A DNA stretch of 6,876 nucleotides from Deltaproteobacteria bacterium (lineage in GTDB: Bacteria > Myxococcota_A > JAADFL01). Shown piece after piece: positions 1-6,876 of the stretch. The stretch lies in assembly GCA_013152945.1 (NCBI GenBank), contig JAADFL010000056.1, positions 1-6,876 on the forward strand, in the 5' to 3' direction. A model generated the notes under the pieces. The model made no database searches and was not told where the DNA came from. It saw only the letters and a list, made by a program, of their open reading frames with translations. A program made the position numbers and the translations under genes. Each line of letters begins with the position of its first letter. Position 1 is the stretch's first letter.

Positions 1-3000
1 GAGCCCTGGATGTTCCTTACGGTAACGAGCATTCTTTCCGGGCCTATTATTCTGAAGTTCACGTCCGCCCTGAACGACGGCGATAAAAGCAACTCTCCCG
101 CCTTGGACGCCTCCTTCAATTGCAGGCCGTGTATTTCATCCCCAAAGGTTCCGTGGATCACAGCTATTCCCCCGTCCACGAGGTAATCACCCACCTGCCC
201 CTCGCCTCCTCCCCTGTACCTTGCAAAATCGTACCTCTGCGAGGTTACAATATCCTTTATCGAAGAATCCCGGACAGGTTGCATCCTCGAGGTCATGGCC
301 CTGAACCCCGAACCGTCCTGTGCCACGAATCCCCCGGGCGGCAAGCTCACGGTCTGTCCGAATGCATCCAGGGTCCAGTCATGGTCCTGGTTGTCATCCC
401 AGGAAATCTGAGCGCTAAACGCAGTGGAGTCACAAAAGTTATTCGCCTTCTGGTCAATCCGTAATGAAATCGTTTCACCTTTCTTGCACGAAATGTCCAG
501 GACAGCCTTGTCGCAAGGGGATGCCCGGTCACCGGGAAGATCACATCTCCAGGCAGTGGAGCCCTGGTGAAGCACGGTTGCTGTCACCCCGTCGCCGCAG
601 CTTAAATCCATGTCCTGTGCCCAGGCCTCCACATGGTACACGGTATCGGCCGGCACTGTGAAAGACCTTATTACCGCACCACCGTCAGGGTGCCCCCCGA
701 ATTCACCAAGGAAGCTGTACTTGTTCTTTCCCTGCCACCTCCTGTTCTCCGGGTCCCAGGCAAGCTCCACGAGCCCTGCGCCCAAATCCTCGTAGTAACG
801 CCAGCCTCGGCCTCCCTGCTCGTACGAGAAGTCGCCGTTCGAACTCGTAAGACCTGTTGAAAAATCCCTGTTCAAATAAACCTTCAGTCCGTTGTCGTAA
901 GTGATCTCGAGCCTCGCATGTTCAAGATCCAACCTGGATCGCAGGGCCTGCTCCAGATCGACAAAATTGCTCCCGTCGAAATACTTCACACTCACCAGGC
1001 CTGCCTCGCTGTATTTCTCCTGCAAGGCCTGCATGAGCCAGTACTCGGGTGCGTGGAAGTCCGGCCAATCCCGGACTCCGTTCACTCCATCGCCCATGAA
1101 CCCTGCATGGCCGAAGGCTATCTCCGTGGCCCTGTAGTGGTCCATGTCCACGTCGTCCGTCGATACGGGTTGCTGGCCCGAGGCAACGAAGAAACGCGCG
1201 TAGTAACCCATGCCGTGGTTGAACATGAGGGGACGCACGCTCAACAGCTCGTAGTCCGGGGCAACCAGTGACCAAGCCCTCTTTTCGACCTGTCTCTCAA
1301 CTGCATCCACGTGGCCGGCAAAGTACGAGTCGAACCTCCCGGTGCCTTCGCCTCCTTCTCCGAACAGGGGTCCCTTGTACACGGACCTGATATAGTCGAA
1401 AAGATCCACGGTGTGCATGAAGGAAAATGCCATTGTCGGCTCCACCTGCCGCGCAGCGTTGTAGTCGATGGCCCTCGACGGGGTCCAGCCCGTAGTGACA
1501 TCCAGGTACGCCGCATTGGGGCCGTAGGCCGATGCTATGGATGGGCTCTCCATTTCGCTGAAATCCCTCATGCGGTCCGCGGCAATGATGAAAGCCTGTT
1601 GGTGAGTACTCGGCTGGTACCACCCGGGTTTCCTGTTCCCCGAAGGGTCCAGGGCTATGGCTGTCTCGTCCCACAGGGGACTCGGGTAATCCGGCGGATT
1701 GTCCGGGTACATGTCAGTGTAGTTTTCATGCAAGGCTATGAGCATGCCCGCATCCCTTGCAGCTTTTACGAAATCCTTCATCTCCTGCCCGGTCCCCAGG
1801 GACGGGTTCGCGGGGTAGTGATCGGGCAGTCCCTGATCATATCCCCACCGCTGCCATACGTGGAATATCACTGCAAGGCTCTTCATGCCGTACTCTACGT
1901 ACCGTTCCACCATGTGCCTGGCATCCACGAACGCCGTGTCGCCCTGGCCGGGATGGCCGCCGCCGGCCCACAGCAGCGAGTATGCACTCTTGCCCTTCCA
2001 CTTGTTGTCGCCGCTATCGAACGTCATTGGGGTGCATTTCCCGGACACGCACTCGAGATACTCAAATCCCTTGTATCCCTGCGTGCCGGAGAAGTCGTCC
2101 CTGGAGTCGAAGGTCTGGCCGGCCATGTTTATCCTGGCCCGCATTGCAGTTGCATCGCATGCATTGTCACCGGCCCTGTCTATCTCGAAATGCAGATTAT
2201 CGCCTGCATCCAGGTCTGCACTGCCCTGCCAGGTCTTGGTCTCTGTCTGCCCGTTCGCCACTGACAGCAGGGCGAGGATAGATGAATCGTGTCTCACGTC
2301 TATTCGCACACCGTCACCGCAATCCGCGTTCTGGTCTGCATATTCCACCCTGATGTCGGCATGCCCGCCAGATTGCGGAGTCCAGCGAACCGCAACGCCC
2401 TCGTCGCCCCCGAACCTGCGGTGCATACCCCATACGTCCAACACCACCCTGCCGGACAGGTCCCGTCTGTATGCTGACACACCTGTATCGACACGCGGAA
2501 GCACGTCCCAAAGATCCGGACTCACTGTTACATACGCCGTGTCGTTCAACTGTTGCACCCGGCCGTTTGTATCCGGAATGTACAGGGTCCTTGCATGACT
2601 GTACAGGCCCGTGCCTTTCGAGATCCCAACCGCCCTCATTACCTCCGAAGAACTGCTCGTGGTTGGGTCCAGGAAGGCGGTCATGACCAGCCCGGAATTG
2701 AGCAGTGCAACCGGTTCCGGCAAGTACGGAAGATCCACTACCCGCGCTCCGGCTGTTTCAGGTGCATGGCCGAGAGAGATACCGGCGTACCCGCCTGCTC
2801 CATATCGGGAGCCGGATGAGAAGCTGATCTTCAGGGACATCCCCTGTAGCGAGAGCCTGAAAGTCTTGTTCAACACATGCGAGCCAAGTTTCTCTGAAAA
2901 GCCCAAAACCAGGCCGCCTGCCTCTATTGCTTTTTTAACCATTACCGGGTTGGTAATTTCAGCCCCCTGTCCGGGCTCCAGGATGTTGCCTGACGAATCC

Positions 3001-3305
3001 CTGTACCTCGTCCCGGCCTTTGACAGGACTATGGTCTCGGGGCCCCGGTCCACGGAGCAGGATACCTCCAGCAGCCCATGGGCGACATCGCCGGAGCCCG
3101 GGCTCACGAAGAACGACACGTCGTGTTTGCATTTTGACCGGAGTACATATCTTGACCTGCCTGCATCATAGGACACGCTGGTCGTGCATTGCCCGGACAC
3201 GGCCCTGGGTACCACAGCGGCAAAGGCAGACAGGACCGGGACAGCCGATGCGATCCCGATCACCACGCACACGGCAGCCGGGAATAAACTCCTTGCCGTT
3301 CTCAT
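1..3305 (-). CDS. Secreted multidomain TIM-barrel glycoside-hydrolase-like protein (C-terminus cut off by window edge)
   Basis: The minus-strand frame stays open for 1101 codons from the ATG at 3305 to base 1, with no stop. The start follows a strong GAGGTG ribosome site and gives a classic signal peptide: Arg3 and Arg5, a hydrophobic core, and likely cleavage after AFA at residue 29. Residues 40-270 look like a beta-sandwich. A TIM barrel follows: strand RVVLDVWGMHRRF at 286-298, then about 461-765 with WQRWGYDQGLPDHYP, LHENYTDMYP, AYLDVTTG (Asp602), GPLFGEGGEG (Glu650) and FNHGMGYY. A C-terminal beta domain carries ITYDNGLKVYLNR (801-813) and VSLPPGGFVAQD (986-997). Two related beta modules interrupt the scaffold at about 299-461 and 815-973. 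From memory the layout resembles GH101/GH129-like or DUF5696-type proteins, which act on carbohydrate outside the cytoplasm, but the exact family and the substrate are not established. The presence of a long exported enzyme-like protein is much surer than its reaction. Confidence 0.85.
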   Translation of the reverse strand, partial: MRTARSLFPAAVCVVIGIASAVPVLSAFAAVVPRAVSGQCTTSVSYDAGRSRYVLRSKCKHDVSFFVSPGSGDVAHGLLEVSCSVDRGPETIVLSKAGTRYRDSSGNILEPGQGAEITNPVMVKKAIEAGGLVLGFSEKLGSHVLNKTFRLSLQGMSLKISFSSGSRYGAGGYAGISLGHAPETAGARVVDLPYLPEPVALLNSGLVMTAFLDPTTSSSSEVMRAVGISKGTGLYSHARTLYIPDTNGRVQQLNDTAYVTVSPDLWDVLPRVDTGVSAYRRDLSGRVVLDVWGMHRRFGGDEGVAVRWTPQSGGHADIRVEYADQNADCGDGVRIDVRHDSSILALLSVANGQTETKTWQGSADLDAGDNLHFEIDRAGDNACDATAMRARINMAGQTFDSRDDFSGTQGYKGFEYLECVSGKCTPMTFDSGDNKWKGKSAYSLLWAGGGHPGQGDTAFVDARHMVERYVEYGMKSLAVIFHVWQRWGYDQGLPDHYPANPSLGTGQEMKDFVKAARDAGMLIALHENYTDMYPDNPPDYPSPLWDETAIALDPSGNRKPGWYQPSTHQQAFIIAADRMRDFSEMESPSIASAYGPNAAYLDVTTGWTPSRAIDYNAARQVEPTMAFSFMHTVDLFDYIRSVYKGPLFGEGGEGTGRFDSYFAGHVDAVERQVEKRAWSLVAPDYELLSVRPLMFNHGMGYYARFFVASGQQPVSTDDVDMDHYRATEIAFGHAGFMGDGVNGVRDWPDFHAPEYWLMQALQEKYSEAGLVSVKYFDGSNFVDLEQALRSRLDLEHARLEITYDNGLKVYLNRDFSTGLTSSNGDFSYEQGGRGWRYYEDLGAGLVELAWDPENRRWQGKNKYSFLGEFGGHPDGGAVIRSFTVPADTVYHVEAWAQDMDLSCGDGVTATVLHQGSTAWRCDLPGDRASPCDKAVLDISCKKGETISLRIDQKANNFCDSTAFSAQISWDDNQDHDWTLDAFGQTVSLPPGGFVAQDGSGFRAMTSRMQPVRDSSIKDIVTSQRYDFARYRGGGEGQVGDYLVDGGIAVIHGTFGDEIHGLQLKEASKAGELLLSPSFRADVNFRIIGPERMLVTVRNIQG
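387..863 (-). other. Inserted beta module 2 within the C-terminal beta domain (halves in order A then B)
   Basis: Residues about 815-973 lie between the strand ITYDNGLKVYLNR and the segment DWTLDAFGQTVSLPPGGF, which I believe are adjacent in uninterrupted relatives. The A half (824-872) has DFSYEQGGRGWRYYE, RRWQGKNKYSFLGE and GGHPDGG. The B half (873-970) has VIRSFTVPADTVYHVEA, CGDGVTATV, KKGETISLRID and NNFCDSTAFSAQI. It matches module 1 half by half, so the two are related copies. It carries three more cysteines (921, 931, 940) than the pair shared with module 1. Confidence 0.55.
1923..2411 (-). other. Inserted beta module 1 within the TIM barrel (halves in order B then A)
   Basis: Residues about 299-461 of the long exported protein separate the first barrel strand (RVVLDVWGMHRRF) from what looks like the first barrel helix (ARHMVERYVEYGMKSL). 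The insert has a B half at 302-398, with VRWTP, CGDGVRIDV, DAGDNLHFEID and NACDATAMRARI. An A half follows at 402-458, with DFSGTQGYKGFEYLE, NKWKGKSAYSLL and GGGHPGQGD. From memory these are the signatures of an accessory beta-sandwich often attached to secreted bacterial enzymes, where A normally comes before B. The module boundaries and the carbohydrate-binding role are inferred. Confidence 0.55.
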
Positions 3306-3307
3306 AC

Positions 3308-3318
3308 TGCACCTCTCG
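3308..3318 (-). promoter_or_regulatory. Shine-Dalgarno site of the long exported-protein gene
   Basis: On the minus strand the bases before the ATG at 3305 read GAGAGGTGCAGT. GAGGTG is a strong match to the 16S anti-Shine-Dalgarno and ends four bases before the start codon. No other nearby start has such a site and also yields a signal peptide, so this decides the start. Confidence 0.75.
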
Positions 3319-3345
3319 TTTCTTGACGACACGCTTACCTTATCC

Positions 3346-3579: not shown

Positions 3580-4491
3580 TCAGCCTCTAACAGTATTCCT
3601 GCCTGCCTCCTTGGCCTCGAACATCTTTTCAGCGGCCCGCCTTAGTAAATCTTCTGCGTCAGAGTCATCAGGACCGAGCGTGACCACGCCGAGGCTCACG
3701 GTAACCGGTATCTCCAAGCCTTGAAATTCGAACATTTCCAGTTCAATAATGGAACGAATCTTTTCCGCGAACTTCATGGCCGCCCGTTTCCCTGTCTCGG
3801 GCAACAACACGGTAAATTCTCCCCCTTGTTGCCTGGCCAGCAGGTCCTCCCTCCTGATCCTGGGAAGCATGGATTGCGCAAGCTGCCTCAATACTGCATC
3901 GCCTCCAAGTTGTCCGAACTCGTCGTTGATTACGTGCAGTTGATCCACATCGAAATTCACTACCGACAAGTCCCTTTCGTAACGCCTGGATCTGCTGATC
4001 TCTTTAGAAAGCTGTTCCAGCAGGTATCTCCTGTTATACGCCCCGGTCAAACCATCCGTAACAGTAAGTCTGTATATTTCCTCCCTGAAAGAATTTTCCA
4101 GGTTGCCGCTCACCAGGAACTTGAAGATAATTCTACCGACCTGGATCCTATCTCCGTGCCTTAGCCTGTACTCATCAATCGCCCTGTCATTTACATAGGT
4201 GCCGTTTGTGCTGCCCAAGTCCCTGATGAGCACCTGTTTATCTCTGACCAAGACCTTTGCATGATTCCTAGACACGCTCTCGATTCCCAACTGGATATCG
4301 CAGGTCGAGGAACGACCGATCACAAGACTGGCCCTGTCTATGATGTACCTCTTGCCCACCTCCGGGCCATATACCATCAGCAGACATGCCTTTCTGGATC
4401 TTTGTCTTTCCTGGATTTTGCTTATCAGGGTAACGACAGTCTTTCCCTGCCTCTTGGCCCTGCCGGTATTTTTTTCGTTATCACCAGCCAT
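3580..4491 (-). CDS. FHA-GGDEF fusion regulator with degenerate QGGEF signature
   Basis: A cytoplasmic two-domain protein of 303 residues if it starts at the ATG at 4491. The FHA domain covers about residues 40-125 and has the usual phosphothreonine-binding landmarks: GRSS (59-62), SRNH (74-77), LGSTNGTYVN (92-101) and LRHGD. The GGDEF domain follows from about 140, with DGLTGAYNRRY, FDVD (180-183), IND and GGDAVL. The signature is QGGEF (222-226) where active diguanylate cyclases have GG[DE]EF. The RxxD inhibitory site (RRED, 213-216) sits five residues before it, as in canonical enzymes. FHA domains bind phosphothreonine peptides, so control by Ser/Thr kinases is likely by family. Loss of the third signature residue suggests poor or no c-di-GMP synthesis and possibly a c-di-GMP-binding role. 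There is no membrane segment. Upstream starts at 4530 (ATG) and 4584 (TTG) are possible, but I saw no ribosome site before 4530 and no clear one before 4584. Confidence 0.92.
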   Translation of the reverse strand: MAGDNEKNTGRAKRQGKTVVTLISKIQERQRSRKACLLMVYGPEVGKRYIIDRASLVIGRSSTCDIQLGIESVSRNHAKVLVRDKQVLIRDLGSTNGTYVNDRAIDEYRLRHGDRIQVGRIIFKFLVSGNLENSFREEIYRLTVTDGLTGAYNRRYLLEQLSKEISRSRRYERDLSVVNFDVDQLHVINDEFGQLGGDAVLRQLAQSMLPRIRREDLLARQQGGEFTVLLPETGKRAAMKFAEKIRSIIELEMFEFQGLEIPVTVSLGVVTLGPDDSDAEDLLRRAAEKMFEAKEAGRNTVRG

Positions 4492-4505
4492 TAATTCTTC
4501 GCCTC
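4492..4505 (-). promoter_or_regulatory. Ribosome-binding site supporting the ATG at 4491
   Basis: The minus strand reads AGAGGCGAAGAATTA directly before the ATG at 4491. GAGG lies 10 bases upstream of the start, which is slightly long but workable. It favours this start over the in-frame ATG at 4530, preceded by CCTGTATAGA, and the TTG at 4584. Confidence 0.45.
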
Positions 4506-4713
4506 TGAAAACCTGTGCATACCGTTTCATTCTATACAGGACGCGCACCAAGGCAAAGAAAAAACGACATGATATCAAAATCAATATTCAATTAATGGAA
4601 TAATAACTTTCATCAATGATATCTATCCGGGGAACTAATCAAGAATTATTTTGGAAGAACCAGGGAAGGAAATTGCTGAAATCAGGCCGCCGTACAGGAC
4701 GACCGACGACCGA
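4506..4713. other. AT-rich gap between the surface-protein gene and the regulator gene
   Basis: This gap probably holds the regulator's promoter, but I cannot pick a -35/-10 pair with acceptable spacing. AT-rich sequence is concentrated at about 4575-4660. ATGATATC occurs twice (4569-4576 and 4616-4623), 47 bases apart, each with a GATATC palindrome. A small tandem repeat of a seven-base unit (ACGACCG) lies at about 4698-4713, beside the stop of the surface-protein gene. I see no clear intrinsic terminator for that gene. Confidence 0.4.
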
Positions 4714-6876
4714 TCAGCCCCTGCGCTTCGTGGCTATTGCGAACAGACCCAGGAACAATGCCCAACCGAATATTCCGGGATATGATGCGCCGGTTGCGCT
4801 GCAGTTGCTGGTCAGGCTGCATCCGCCGCCGCCCTGTCCGCCGAGAACCAGTACGGAGAATGCCTTTATGTCTTTCACAAGACTGTCCATGTTGGTATCA
4901 TTGAACTCGAAGAGCTGATCCACGCCCATATCGCCATTTGTTTCCCATGCCTCTACGCTCACCGTAGGCTTGTCTCCGATATCCGCAAAGCCGTTCGGAA
5001 CCGCCGGCAAGTTGAAGCTTGGATTGCCCTTAGGCACGTAAACCTGCCACTGGACATTGTCTGCCATCAGGGTCATCCGGTACATACTTGCACCATCCAC
5101 CTGTTTACCCGAGAAGGTCCTGGAACCTGCGTCGAAGGTGGCATTTTCCACCCAACCCAGGAAATTGGACACATCGAGCTTGGCATCGGCCGGAAGCTTG
5201 TCCATGATGTCGAGGCGTCCGGAAATCGGAATGTCGGCGCCGCTGCTGAAGTCGAGTTTTGTAACCAGGGTCGCTACTACGTAAGGCGATCCTTCGATTC
5301 CGCCATGCTCGGGCGAAAGCTTGATGGTGATCTTTCCGTCACTTTTCTCTCCGACCATTTGATCAGGAGTGTCATCGTCGCTCCGCTTGTCGGTTCCGGC
5401 TCCGAGTCCAAGTATTACAAGCCCTTCAGGTGGTAGCGCACCGGCCAACACGACTGCAGCCTCCATCGGCGAATCATTGTAAGACGGCAATTTGGGTATG
5501 GAAAGCTCAAGATCCTGGCGCATCGGCGTATCGAGTACCAGGGGACCCACGGTCGGGAAATTATCGAAGTCGGCAATCATGTCATCGGTCTTGCCGTTTC
5601 CATTGAGATCGTTCACATCAGCTACCTTGGGAATGGCCTTGACATCGAGCCCGGTAAGAATGCCGTGCTGGAACTTGTAGATGTACGGCATCAACTTTGG
5701 AAGGTTCTCGCCGATCACGGCACCGTAGTCGCACTGGTTCGAGCACTTGTCGATGATAGGTGAAACAATGTCGAGGAGATCCTGCAACGGCAGATAACCG
5801 CCGAAGCCCCAAAGCACGCGGGAACCGTCTTCACCCTCTACCTCGAAACCTTTCTTGAATGTATTGCCGCTGAACCCGATGTGCAGGCCGGAAGGCAACG
5901 GGACATTGTCATTGTAGATGGCGCCGAGGTCGATATGGGTCTGGATCATCTCGCCGATGAGACTTGTGAAATCGAGGTTGGTCAAGTCGCCTGCGATGGA
6001 GAGCCCGGCCATGCCTATTTCTATTTCACTCTTTGTTATAAACTTCGAAAAATCGAAATCTCCCTTTACGCCGCCGGCCTTGTTCGGGTCGGGGAAGGGC
6101 TTGGTGTAGAATACCAGGTCATTTTTGGTGACATTCATTGCCGTGAGGTACGGGTACCCTTGCTTGAATACACTTACCGTTGATGCATTGAGACCGGTAA
6201 ACAATGCCGCACCTGTTGCATCGGTTACTTGTTCCTGGTCGTCGGCCTTTACCGTGGCCCCTTCGATTGGAGCGCCTGTAGCACTGTCGAAAAGCAGTAC
6301 CCGCGTATCGGCTGATGCAACCGCACTGTAATTAGTGAGCACTACCGCATCACTTGCAACCGTGTCGTTGCAGGCCAGCTTTGCCACGATGTCGGTGGTG
6401 CCTGACTTGTTTCCACCTGTGGCGACTCCTGTTTCCTCGTCTATGCTTGCAACATCCGTATCACTCGAACTCCACTTGAAGAGGAAGCCGGGAAGTACCG
6501 CCCCGTTCTTGTTCAACGCCTGGGCGCTGAAGGCTTTGGTCTTGCCCTCTGTAACCGCGCCTGCGGCGGTCGTGATGCGAACCGCCGTTACCACGTTGCA
6601 CTGGGGTGCGTCCACGCACTTACCACCTGAACAAATCTGGCCCCCGGGGCACTCATCGTTGCCCCCGCAAAGCGCTATCTGGCAAACGCCGTTCCTGCAC
6701 TCGTAGTCACTGCCAAGGTCCTTGCAATCAGTATTGCCGGAACATGTTACGATCTTCTGGCAACAACCTTCCTCACACCACCAGCCGGGATCGCAGTCAT
6801 CGTCCACGCCACAGGCCAAGCGGTTCGGGTCGCTCGGACAAACATCGCCCGTATCCGTATCCGTGTCAGTGTCCGT
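4714..6876 (-). CDS. Large cysteine-rich surface protein with Big_2 domain and MYXO-CTERM-like tail (N-terminus cut off)
   Basis: The frame is open to the window edge and ends at TGA 4714-4716. It shows 720 residues; the TTG at 6819 lies inside the coding sequence and is not the start. In order (counting the visible part): a Thr-Asp repeat (1-9), then three four-cysteine units (22-87). A Big_2-like Ig domain follows (about 95-185, with VRITTAAGAVTEGKTKAFSA and FKWSSSDTDVASID). Next is a segment like a carboxypeptidase regulatory domain (about 190-255, TGAPIEGATVKADD). About 400 residues I do not recognise follow, including the calcium-loop-like DLNGNGKTD. The tail is GGGGCS, a hydrophobic stretch, then KRR. 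The linker and cysteine units are typical of exported lipoproteins in myxobacteria-like lineages, so a signal peptide with a lipid-modified Cys upstream is expected but not visible. The MYXO-CTERM type of tail is a sorting signal for envelope anchoring or processing. No enzymatic motif is seen; an adhesion or binding role is a guess. Confidence 0.93.
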   Translation of the reverse strand, partial: TDTDTDTDTGDVCPSDPNRLACGVDDDCDPGWWCEEGCCQKIVTCSGNTDCKDLGSDYECRNGVCQIALCGGNDECPGGQICSGGKCVDAPQCNVVTAVRITTAAGAVTEGKTKAFSAQALNKNGAVLPGFLFKWSSSDTDVASIDEETGVATGGNKSGTTDIVAKLACNDTVASDAVVLTNYSAVASADTRVLLFDSATGAPIEGATVKADDQEQVTDATGAALFTGLNASTVSVFKQGYPYLTAMNVTKNDLVFYTKPFPDPNKAGGVKGDFDFSKFITKSEIEIGMAGLSIAGDLTNLDFTSLIGEMIQTHIDLGAIYNDNVPLPSGLHIGFSGNTFKKGFEVEGEDGSRVLWGFGGYLPLQDLLDIVSPIIDKCSNQCDYGAVIGENLPKLMPYIYKFQHGILTGLDVKAIPKVADVNDLNGNGKTDDMIADFDNFPTVGPLVLDTPMRQDLELSIPKLPSYNDSPMEAAVVLAGALPPEGLVILGLGAGTDKRSDDDTPDQMVGEKSDGKITIKLSPEHGGIEGSPYVVATLVTKLDFSSGADIPISGRLDIMDKLPADAKLDVSNFLGWVENATFDAGSRTFSGKQVDGASMYRMTLMADNVQWQVYVPKGNPSFNLPAVPNGFADIGDKPTVSVEAWETNGDMGVDQLFEFNDTNMDSLVKDIKAFSVLVLGGQGGGGCSLTSNCSATGASYPGIFGWALFLGLFAIATKRRG
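4717..4845 (-). other. C-terminal sorting signal, MYXO-CTERM-like
   Basis: The last 43 residues of the surface protein have three parts: a Gly-rich stretch with an invariant-type Cys (GGQGGGGCS), a hydrophobic segment (GIFGWALFLGLFAIA) and a basic end (KRRG). This is the layout of MYXO-CTERM and related Cys-containing sorting signals. A second Cys lies six residues after the first. The exact signal family was not checked. Confidence 0.65.
5584..5610 (-). other. Calcium-binding-loop-like motif in the surface protein
   Basis: The encoded segment DLNGNGKTD matches the D-x-[DN]-x-[DN]-G-x-x-D loop that binds calcium in FG-GAP, dockerin and EF-hand-like proteins. Only one copy is seen, with no clear flanking helices, so the motif is suggestive only. 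Confidence 0.4.
6616..6813 (-). repeat. Three tandem four-cysteine units in the surface protein
   Basis: The encoded units begin CGVDDDC, CSGNTDC and CGGNDEC, and end with EEGCC, RNGVC and SGGKC. The first and second cysteines are always five residues apart (C-x5-C) and the second Cys follows an acidic residue. The DNA copies have diverged, so the repeat is old at nucleotide level. Such units are common after the linker in exported proteins of myxobacteria-like bacteria and are probably disulfide-bonded. Confidence 0.75.
6850..6876 (-). repeat. Thr-Asp dipeptide linker encoded by a hexamer-like repeat
   Basis: The first nine visible codons alternate ACN Thr and GAY Asp (TDTDTDTDT) and run off the window edge, so the full length is unknown. 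The two codons form an imperfect six-base repeat, which can change copy number without shifting the frame. Linkers like this usually follow a lipoprotein signal peptide. Confidence 0.8.

Follow-up and report, generated by a model that had tools for sequence, protein, structure and literature searches.

The window analysed here, a stretch of 6,876 nucleotides from a deltaproteobacterial contig, carries a predicted glycosidase gene in which a preliminary description had seen two related beta modules with their halves, A and B, in opposite order. This locus raises the question of whether the two modules are copies of one domain, which of them is permuted, and how the reversed order arose. On the reading that we favour with high confidence, the gene encodes a putative retaining alpha-glycosidase, anchored at the cell surface, whose GH129-like scaffold combines an N-terminal beta-sandwich, a TIM barrel and a C-terminal beta domain and carries two copies of a jelly-roll-like domain of ~155 residues. 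Module 2 is in the order A-B; module 1, in the loop that leads from barrel strand 1 to helix 1, is permuted to B-A. Residue numbers start at the GTG codon. In the preliminary description numbering began at the ATG, here residue 10; the ranges that it gave as 299-461 and 815-973 are therefore 308-470 and 824-982 in our count.

The host enzyme and its two insertions

The gene and its parts, in the order of the protein, are as follows.

3-3332, minus strand: glycosidase gene (GH129/DUF5696-like, predicted secreted), 1110 residues, cut off by the end of the contig
2523-3215, minus strand: host N-terminal beta-sandwich, ~residues 40-270, from AF2 strands; the VIA alignment to GH129 begins at model residue 31-33
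2433-2447, minus strand: barrel strand 1, residues 296-300, in RVVLDVWG, the left border of module 1 (AF2 strand, model 267-271)
1929-2414, minus strand: module 1, residues 307-468, order B-A, from profile rotation, AF2 and empty-site alignment
2118-2414, minus strand: B half of module 1, residues 307-405, canonical profile ~60-153, from profile matches
1929-2117, minus strand: A half of module 1, residues 406-468, canonical profile ~2-61, from profile matches
1893-1934, minus strand: barrel helix 1, residues 467-480, the right border of module 1 (AF2 helix, model 438-451)
1500-1502, minus strand: Asp611, predicted nucleophile, invariant among relatives
1356-1358, minus strand: Glu659 (in GPLFGEGGEG), predicted acid/base, invariant among relatives, its role assigned from the spacing to the nucleophile
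387-848, minus strand: module 2, residues 829-982, A (829-885) then B (886-982), within the C-terminal beta domain, from profile, AF2 and empty-site alignment
3-386, minus strand: host C-terminal beta domain resumed, residues 983-1110, split by module 2, from empty-site alignment and AF2 strands

The glycosidase scored 40.4 bits with the DUF5696 family (PF18952; cut-off 25.6 bits), over only positions 264-343 of the 612 in the profile. An NCBIfam search returned nothing for the host. A profile built from 29 host relatives matched the GH129 enzyme NagBb (E 2.1e-14) through the nucleophile region, and hmmsearch aligned Asp611 with NagBb Asp435, which we take to be the catalytic nucleophile of that enzyme. 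The full-length AF2 model (pLDDT 86.2, pTM 0.85) was closest in VIA to GH129 structures, with Z of 23.9-25.8 over ~510-546 aligned residues (top match: Z 25.8, 511 residues, rmsd 3.6), and the next families, alpha-amylases, were well below at Z ~20. The GH129 crystal structures of NagBb (5wzn, 5wzp) and ZgGH129 (5opq, 8rzk) align to the host on both flanks of the inserts and have the whole scaffold in common with it at ~14% identity. Unlike the window host, their chains (603-659 residues modelled) have no room for two modules as well. Sequence and model together point to a secreted, GH129/DUF5696-like glycosidase. No relatives of the barrel were found in the viral contigs searched.

The contig break falls within the glycosidase gene, with 87 bases common to window positions 3-89 and to L015:10699-10785 on another contig of the same genome (G000:C24). 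That contig repeats residues 1082-1110 and adds 219 further residues, which supply the remaining C-terminus of a full-length protein of ~1329 aa. The protein ends in a CGC motif followed by a hydrophobic stretch and basic residues; judged from its sequence, this tail is a typical surface anchor. Two other genes were observed upstream on the same strand. Positions 4714-6876 encode a large secreted Cys-rich protein that weakly matches Big_2 and carboxypeptidase-regulatory-like profiles and whose C-terminus (GGGGCSLTSNC, a hydrophobic stretch, then KRRG) resembles the anchor of the glycosidase; positions 3580-4584 encode an FHA domain fused to a GGDEF diguanylate cyclase domain.

A search of public genomes with the barrel profile yielded 80 loci, eight of which carried module 1, all of them in Deltaproteobacteria or Myxococcales MAGs. 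One MAG orthologue (L041 / L032) was split over two reading frames near the barrel end, probably through sequencing error. In the inspected relatives from other phyla, the module 1 site spans 43-46 residues, compared with 206 in the window, as in LDIWGHHQGTYQGDAENLRTLKDHG, and barrel strand 1 of the window aligns with their LDIWGHH. The whole of module 1, including the A half, is absent at this site. At the module 2 site these relatives have an unbroken host hairpin (VWVN..PW.VEGR.LPQWGF), while the window reads VYLNRD, module 2, then DWTLDAFGQTVSLPPGGF. Since both sites are empty in the inspected relatives outside the clade, both modules are insertions, seen only in this clade. The AF2 borders and the empty sites thus bear out the placement that had been proposed from the sequence, with module 1 interrupting the barrel between strand 1 and helix 1 and module 2 interrupting the C-terminal beta domain at a hairpin that is continuous in the relatives.

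The canonical domain and the rotation of module 1

In standalone copies of the domain from this phylum A precedes B, opposite to module 1. We built a canonical A-B profile from 16 copies, with every module 1 left out. Module 2 gave one A-B match of 232 bits, whereas module 1 gave separate matches, first B at 61 bits and then A at 51 bits. The proposed relatedness of the two modules was thereby upheld, as both match the same profile, and so was the opposite order of their halves, with the motifs at the expected places: GGDEGVAVRW at 308, CGDGV at 338, CDAT at 392, WKGKSAY at 445 and GGHPG at 458 in module 1, and WQGKNK at 866, GGHPDGG at 879, CGDGV at 912 and CDST at 967 in module 2. The preliminary description had treated both modules as permuted; this holds for module 1 only, module 2 being canonical.

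When module 1 of the window was rotated, it scored 121.8 bits instead of 64.8, and the profile coverage grew from 60-153 to 2-152. Every rotation was scored, and the best cut fell between residues 405 and 406 (RINMAG|QTFDS). Across nine orthologues, rotation gained ~41 to 58 bits, and all shared one best cut (index 99; 105 in the two longer modules). As controls, shuffled sequences reached at most 4.6 bits, and three canonical copies scored best unrotated. Homology between module 1 and the canonical domain is, by these sequence scores, far above chance.

AF2 modelled module 1 alone, with nine sequences, as a single beta sandwich (pLDDT 84.7, pTM 0.82) whose strand order is that of module 2 rotated; the B half did not form an unrelated domain of its own, the outcome that the preliminary description had said would refute its reading. 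The B-half strands are 7, 11, 7, 8, 9, 7 and 9 residues long in module 1 and 7, 11, 7, 8, 7, 8 and 10 in module 2. Each A half opens with a short helical turn and then a strand six or seven residues long. In the models, strand succession and lengths thus match after rotation, with the ends relocated on the same predicted fold. The original ends are joined at 405/406, and the loop that follows the HPG motif provides the new ends. Here module 1 is ~eight residues longer than the canonical loop; this extra sequence could be a linker or a remnant.

The rotation gain, the shared cut in nine orthologues and the predicted single fold identify module 1 as a circular permutant of the canonical A-B domain. 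Two other readings of its architecture were weighed. One, also given in the preliminary description as a refuting outcome, is that only B was inserted and that A, which adjoins barrel helix 1, belongs to the GH129-like barrel itself. It has next to no chance of being right, given that the inspected relatives, with their short sites, lack the segment and that A scores 51 bits with the canonical profile. Module 1 might otherwise be two half-domains from different copies that do not fold together, and two truncated tandem copies would also give B-A with extra residues at the ends. We regard this as very improbable because AF2 predicts module 1 alone as one confident domain, an alignment with a carbohydrate-binding module in VIA runs through both halves (model 26-163), and the halves are kept together in the nine orthologues.

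The domain appears to be uncatalogued. Pfam searches at E up to 10 found no family for a standalone copy, for module 2 or for module 1 (the first residues of this last query being inexact), and a Pfam search with the whole protein likewise gave no match at module 1. Sequence profiles of the domain had no match among solved structures, and no copy of the canonical form was found in plasmid records. Phage records gave one partial match to the domain: a conserved hypothetical protein of Pseudomonas phage DVM-2008 (EU982300.1, 2705-3031) resembles the B half, with 29.5% identity and E 3e-7.

Permutation in other hosts and its likely route

A scan of 282 genomes of the same phylum found no permuted copy outside the glycosidase. 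In the rotation scan of other phyla, most copies gained at most 6 bits and served as a negative control. Scanning with long segments missed types II and III of the permuted domain, and both were revealed by trimmed segments. One of these hosts is a pair of melibiase-like proteins (L145:1-2748:- and L146:1-2748:-), in which the domain is inserted in reversed order with the breakpoint at profile 85/86; rotation raised the scores from 62 and 58 bits to 106 and 120. The melibiase label is weak, with E 0.0023, below the Pfam cut-off, for L145 and no match for L146. In two relatives of this host (L167 and L168) the module is absent, the positions equivalent to host residues 243 and 431 lie ~ten residues apart, and an A-B copy is found near the C-terminus instead. 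Judged by profile scores, the permutation in the melibiase-like hosts is clear.

Evidence for the third protein type (L135-L144, without a clear Pfam match) is moderate. Here the first strand of the domain, FxASxxFxxxQGxGGWSYE, is placed behind B. Nine of the ten proteins could be tested, with a rotation gain of 9 to 21 bits, and the rotated score exceeded that of shuffled tails in 9/9, the weakest by only about one bit. In the tree, each permuted type forms its own group (support 100/99, 100/97 and 95/93). The breakpoints differ between hosts, and for that reason we favour separate permutation events. We consider it probable, with appreciable room for doubt, that one uncatalogued CBM-like domain has undergone three or more permutations, each with its own breakpoint (profile ~60/61 in the GH129-like, ~85/86 in the melibiase-like and ~28-38 in the third type), with the permuted copy being an insertion in at least the first two. 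This latter point suggests that insertion selects a rotation that places the ends at the host loop.

Could B-A be the ancestral order and A-B derived from it? The tree leaves room for this in that it does not settle how the groups are related, but A-B spans many unrelated contexts and phyla, and each B-A type is limited to one host type with its own breakpoint, so we think this direction hardly likely. Nor does the tree support derivation of module 1 from module 2, or the reverse.

With A-B as the starting order, the likely route would be a tandem A-B-A-B array trimmed to B-A, at or before insertion. The preliminary description had argued for duplication followed by loss of the ends, pointing to short GG-containing segments at the junctions. 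The route remains plausible, since tandem A-B copies exist: a DUF4185 protein (G025; L124:1-1779:+) has two full copies in tandem. The argument from GG fails. The N-terminal junction of module 1 reads FGGDEGV in only 3/9 orthologues, with FGVAEGV, FSAPEGV, YSVKEGV and similar in the others, and because GG is not conserved there it is weak, non-discriminating evidence for duplication. Separately, a melibiase protein (L148) was observed to have three matches to the domain.

Fold relatives, function and significance

The best structural matches of module 1 were jelly rolls, several of them carbohydrate-binding, with a maximum Z of 7.5 for the C-terminal domain of EclA, a domain of calcium-mediated fucose binding. 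Matches to vCBM60 (Z 6.9) and CBM36 (Z 6.3) are at or below the background level of the tool. All these values, that of EclA included, are too low to support family membership or a common superfamily, and no sequence similarity of the modules to CBM36 or CBM60 was found. Module 1 aligns with CBM60 across both halves (model 25/26-163) and with CBM36 over the B half only (10-107), a pattern expected of a permuted module but only suggestive.

Loops after TIM-barrel strands lie on the catalytic face. Since module 1 follows barrel strand 1, it is predicted to flank the active site at its rim, where it would help hold or position the glycan. With its ends relocated, the edge of the module that faces the cleft would not be the one that a canonical insertion presents. 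Module 2 would serve as an ordinary accessory glycan-binding domain. We infer glycan binding by both modules from the host type and the fold. Module 1 may instead be a structural or regulatory insert, such as a lid, an oligomerisation surface or a disulfide-locked stabiliser. Its B-half cysteines C338 and C392, invariant in the nine orthologues, would suit a stabilising disulfide, and jelly rolls that do not bind sugar (C1q, GOLD) match at similar Z. The domain recurs in glycosidase hosts, however, and several carbohydrate-binding modules are among the matches, making this second role unlikely, if still a serious contender, compared with glycan binding.

Circular permutation and domain insertion are already known, even in combination. 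CBM36 and CBM60 are calcium-dependent carbohydrate-binding families related by circular permutation (Montanier et al. 2010); there, the two orders, with vCBM60 (PDB 2xfd, 2xhh) representing one, are separate families, whereas the window enzyme has both orders in one protein. The GH13_19 alpha-amylase MalS has a permuted domain arrangement around its glycosidase barrel (PMC10223318), but it is the host's own C-domain that is permuted, as opposed to an inserted accessory domain. Inserted domains that are themselves permuted have been noted for RNA polymerase, in a passage that names no glycosidase example (PMC13114784); as described there, insertion and permutation meet in one domain, as in module 1, while fold and host differ. 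What is new here is the uncatalogued domain, the occurrence of its permuted and canonical forms together in an enzyme whose relatives have empty sites, and repeated permutation in other hosts.

Permuted and unpermuted copies, empty sites and other hosts together make up a natural series that links permutation with insertion. This series could be used to ask if permutation precedes insertion and if the host site dictates the breakpoint. The domain is missing from Pfam yet present in 23 of the 44 genomes that were examined in other phyla, and giving it a name would bring annotation to many secreted proteins.
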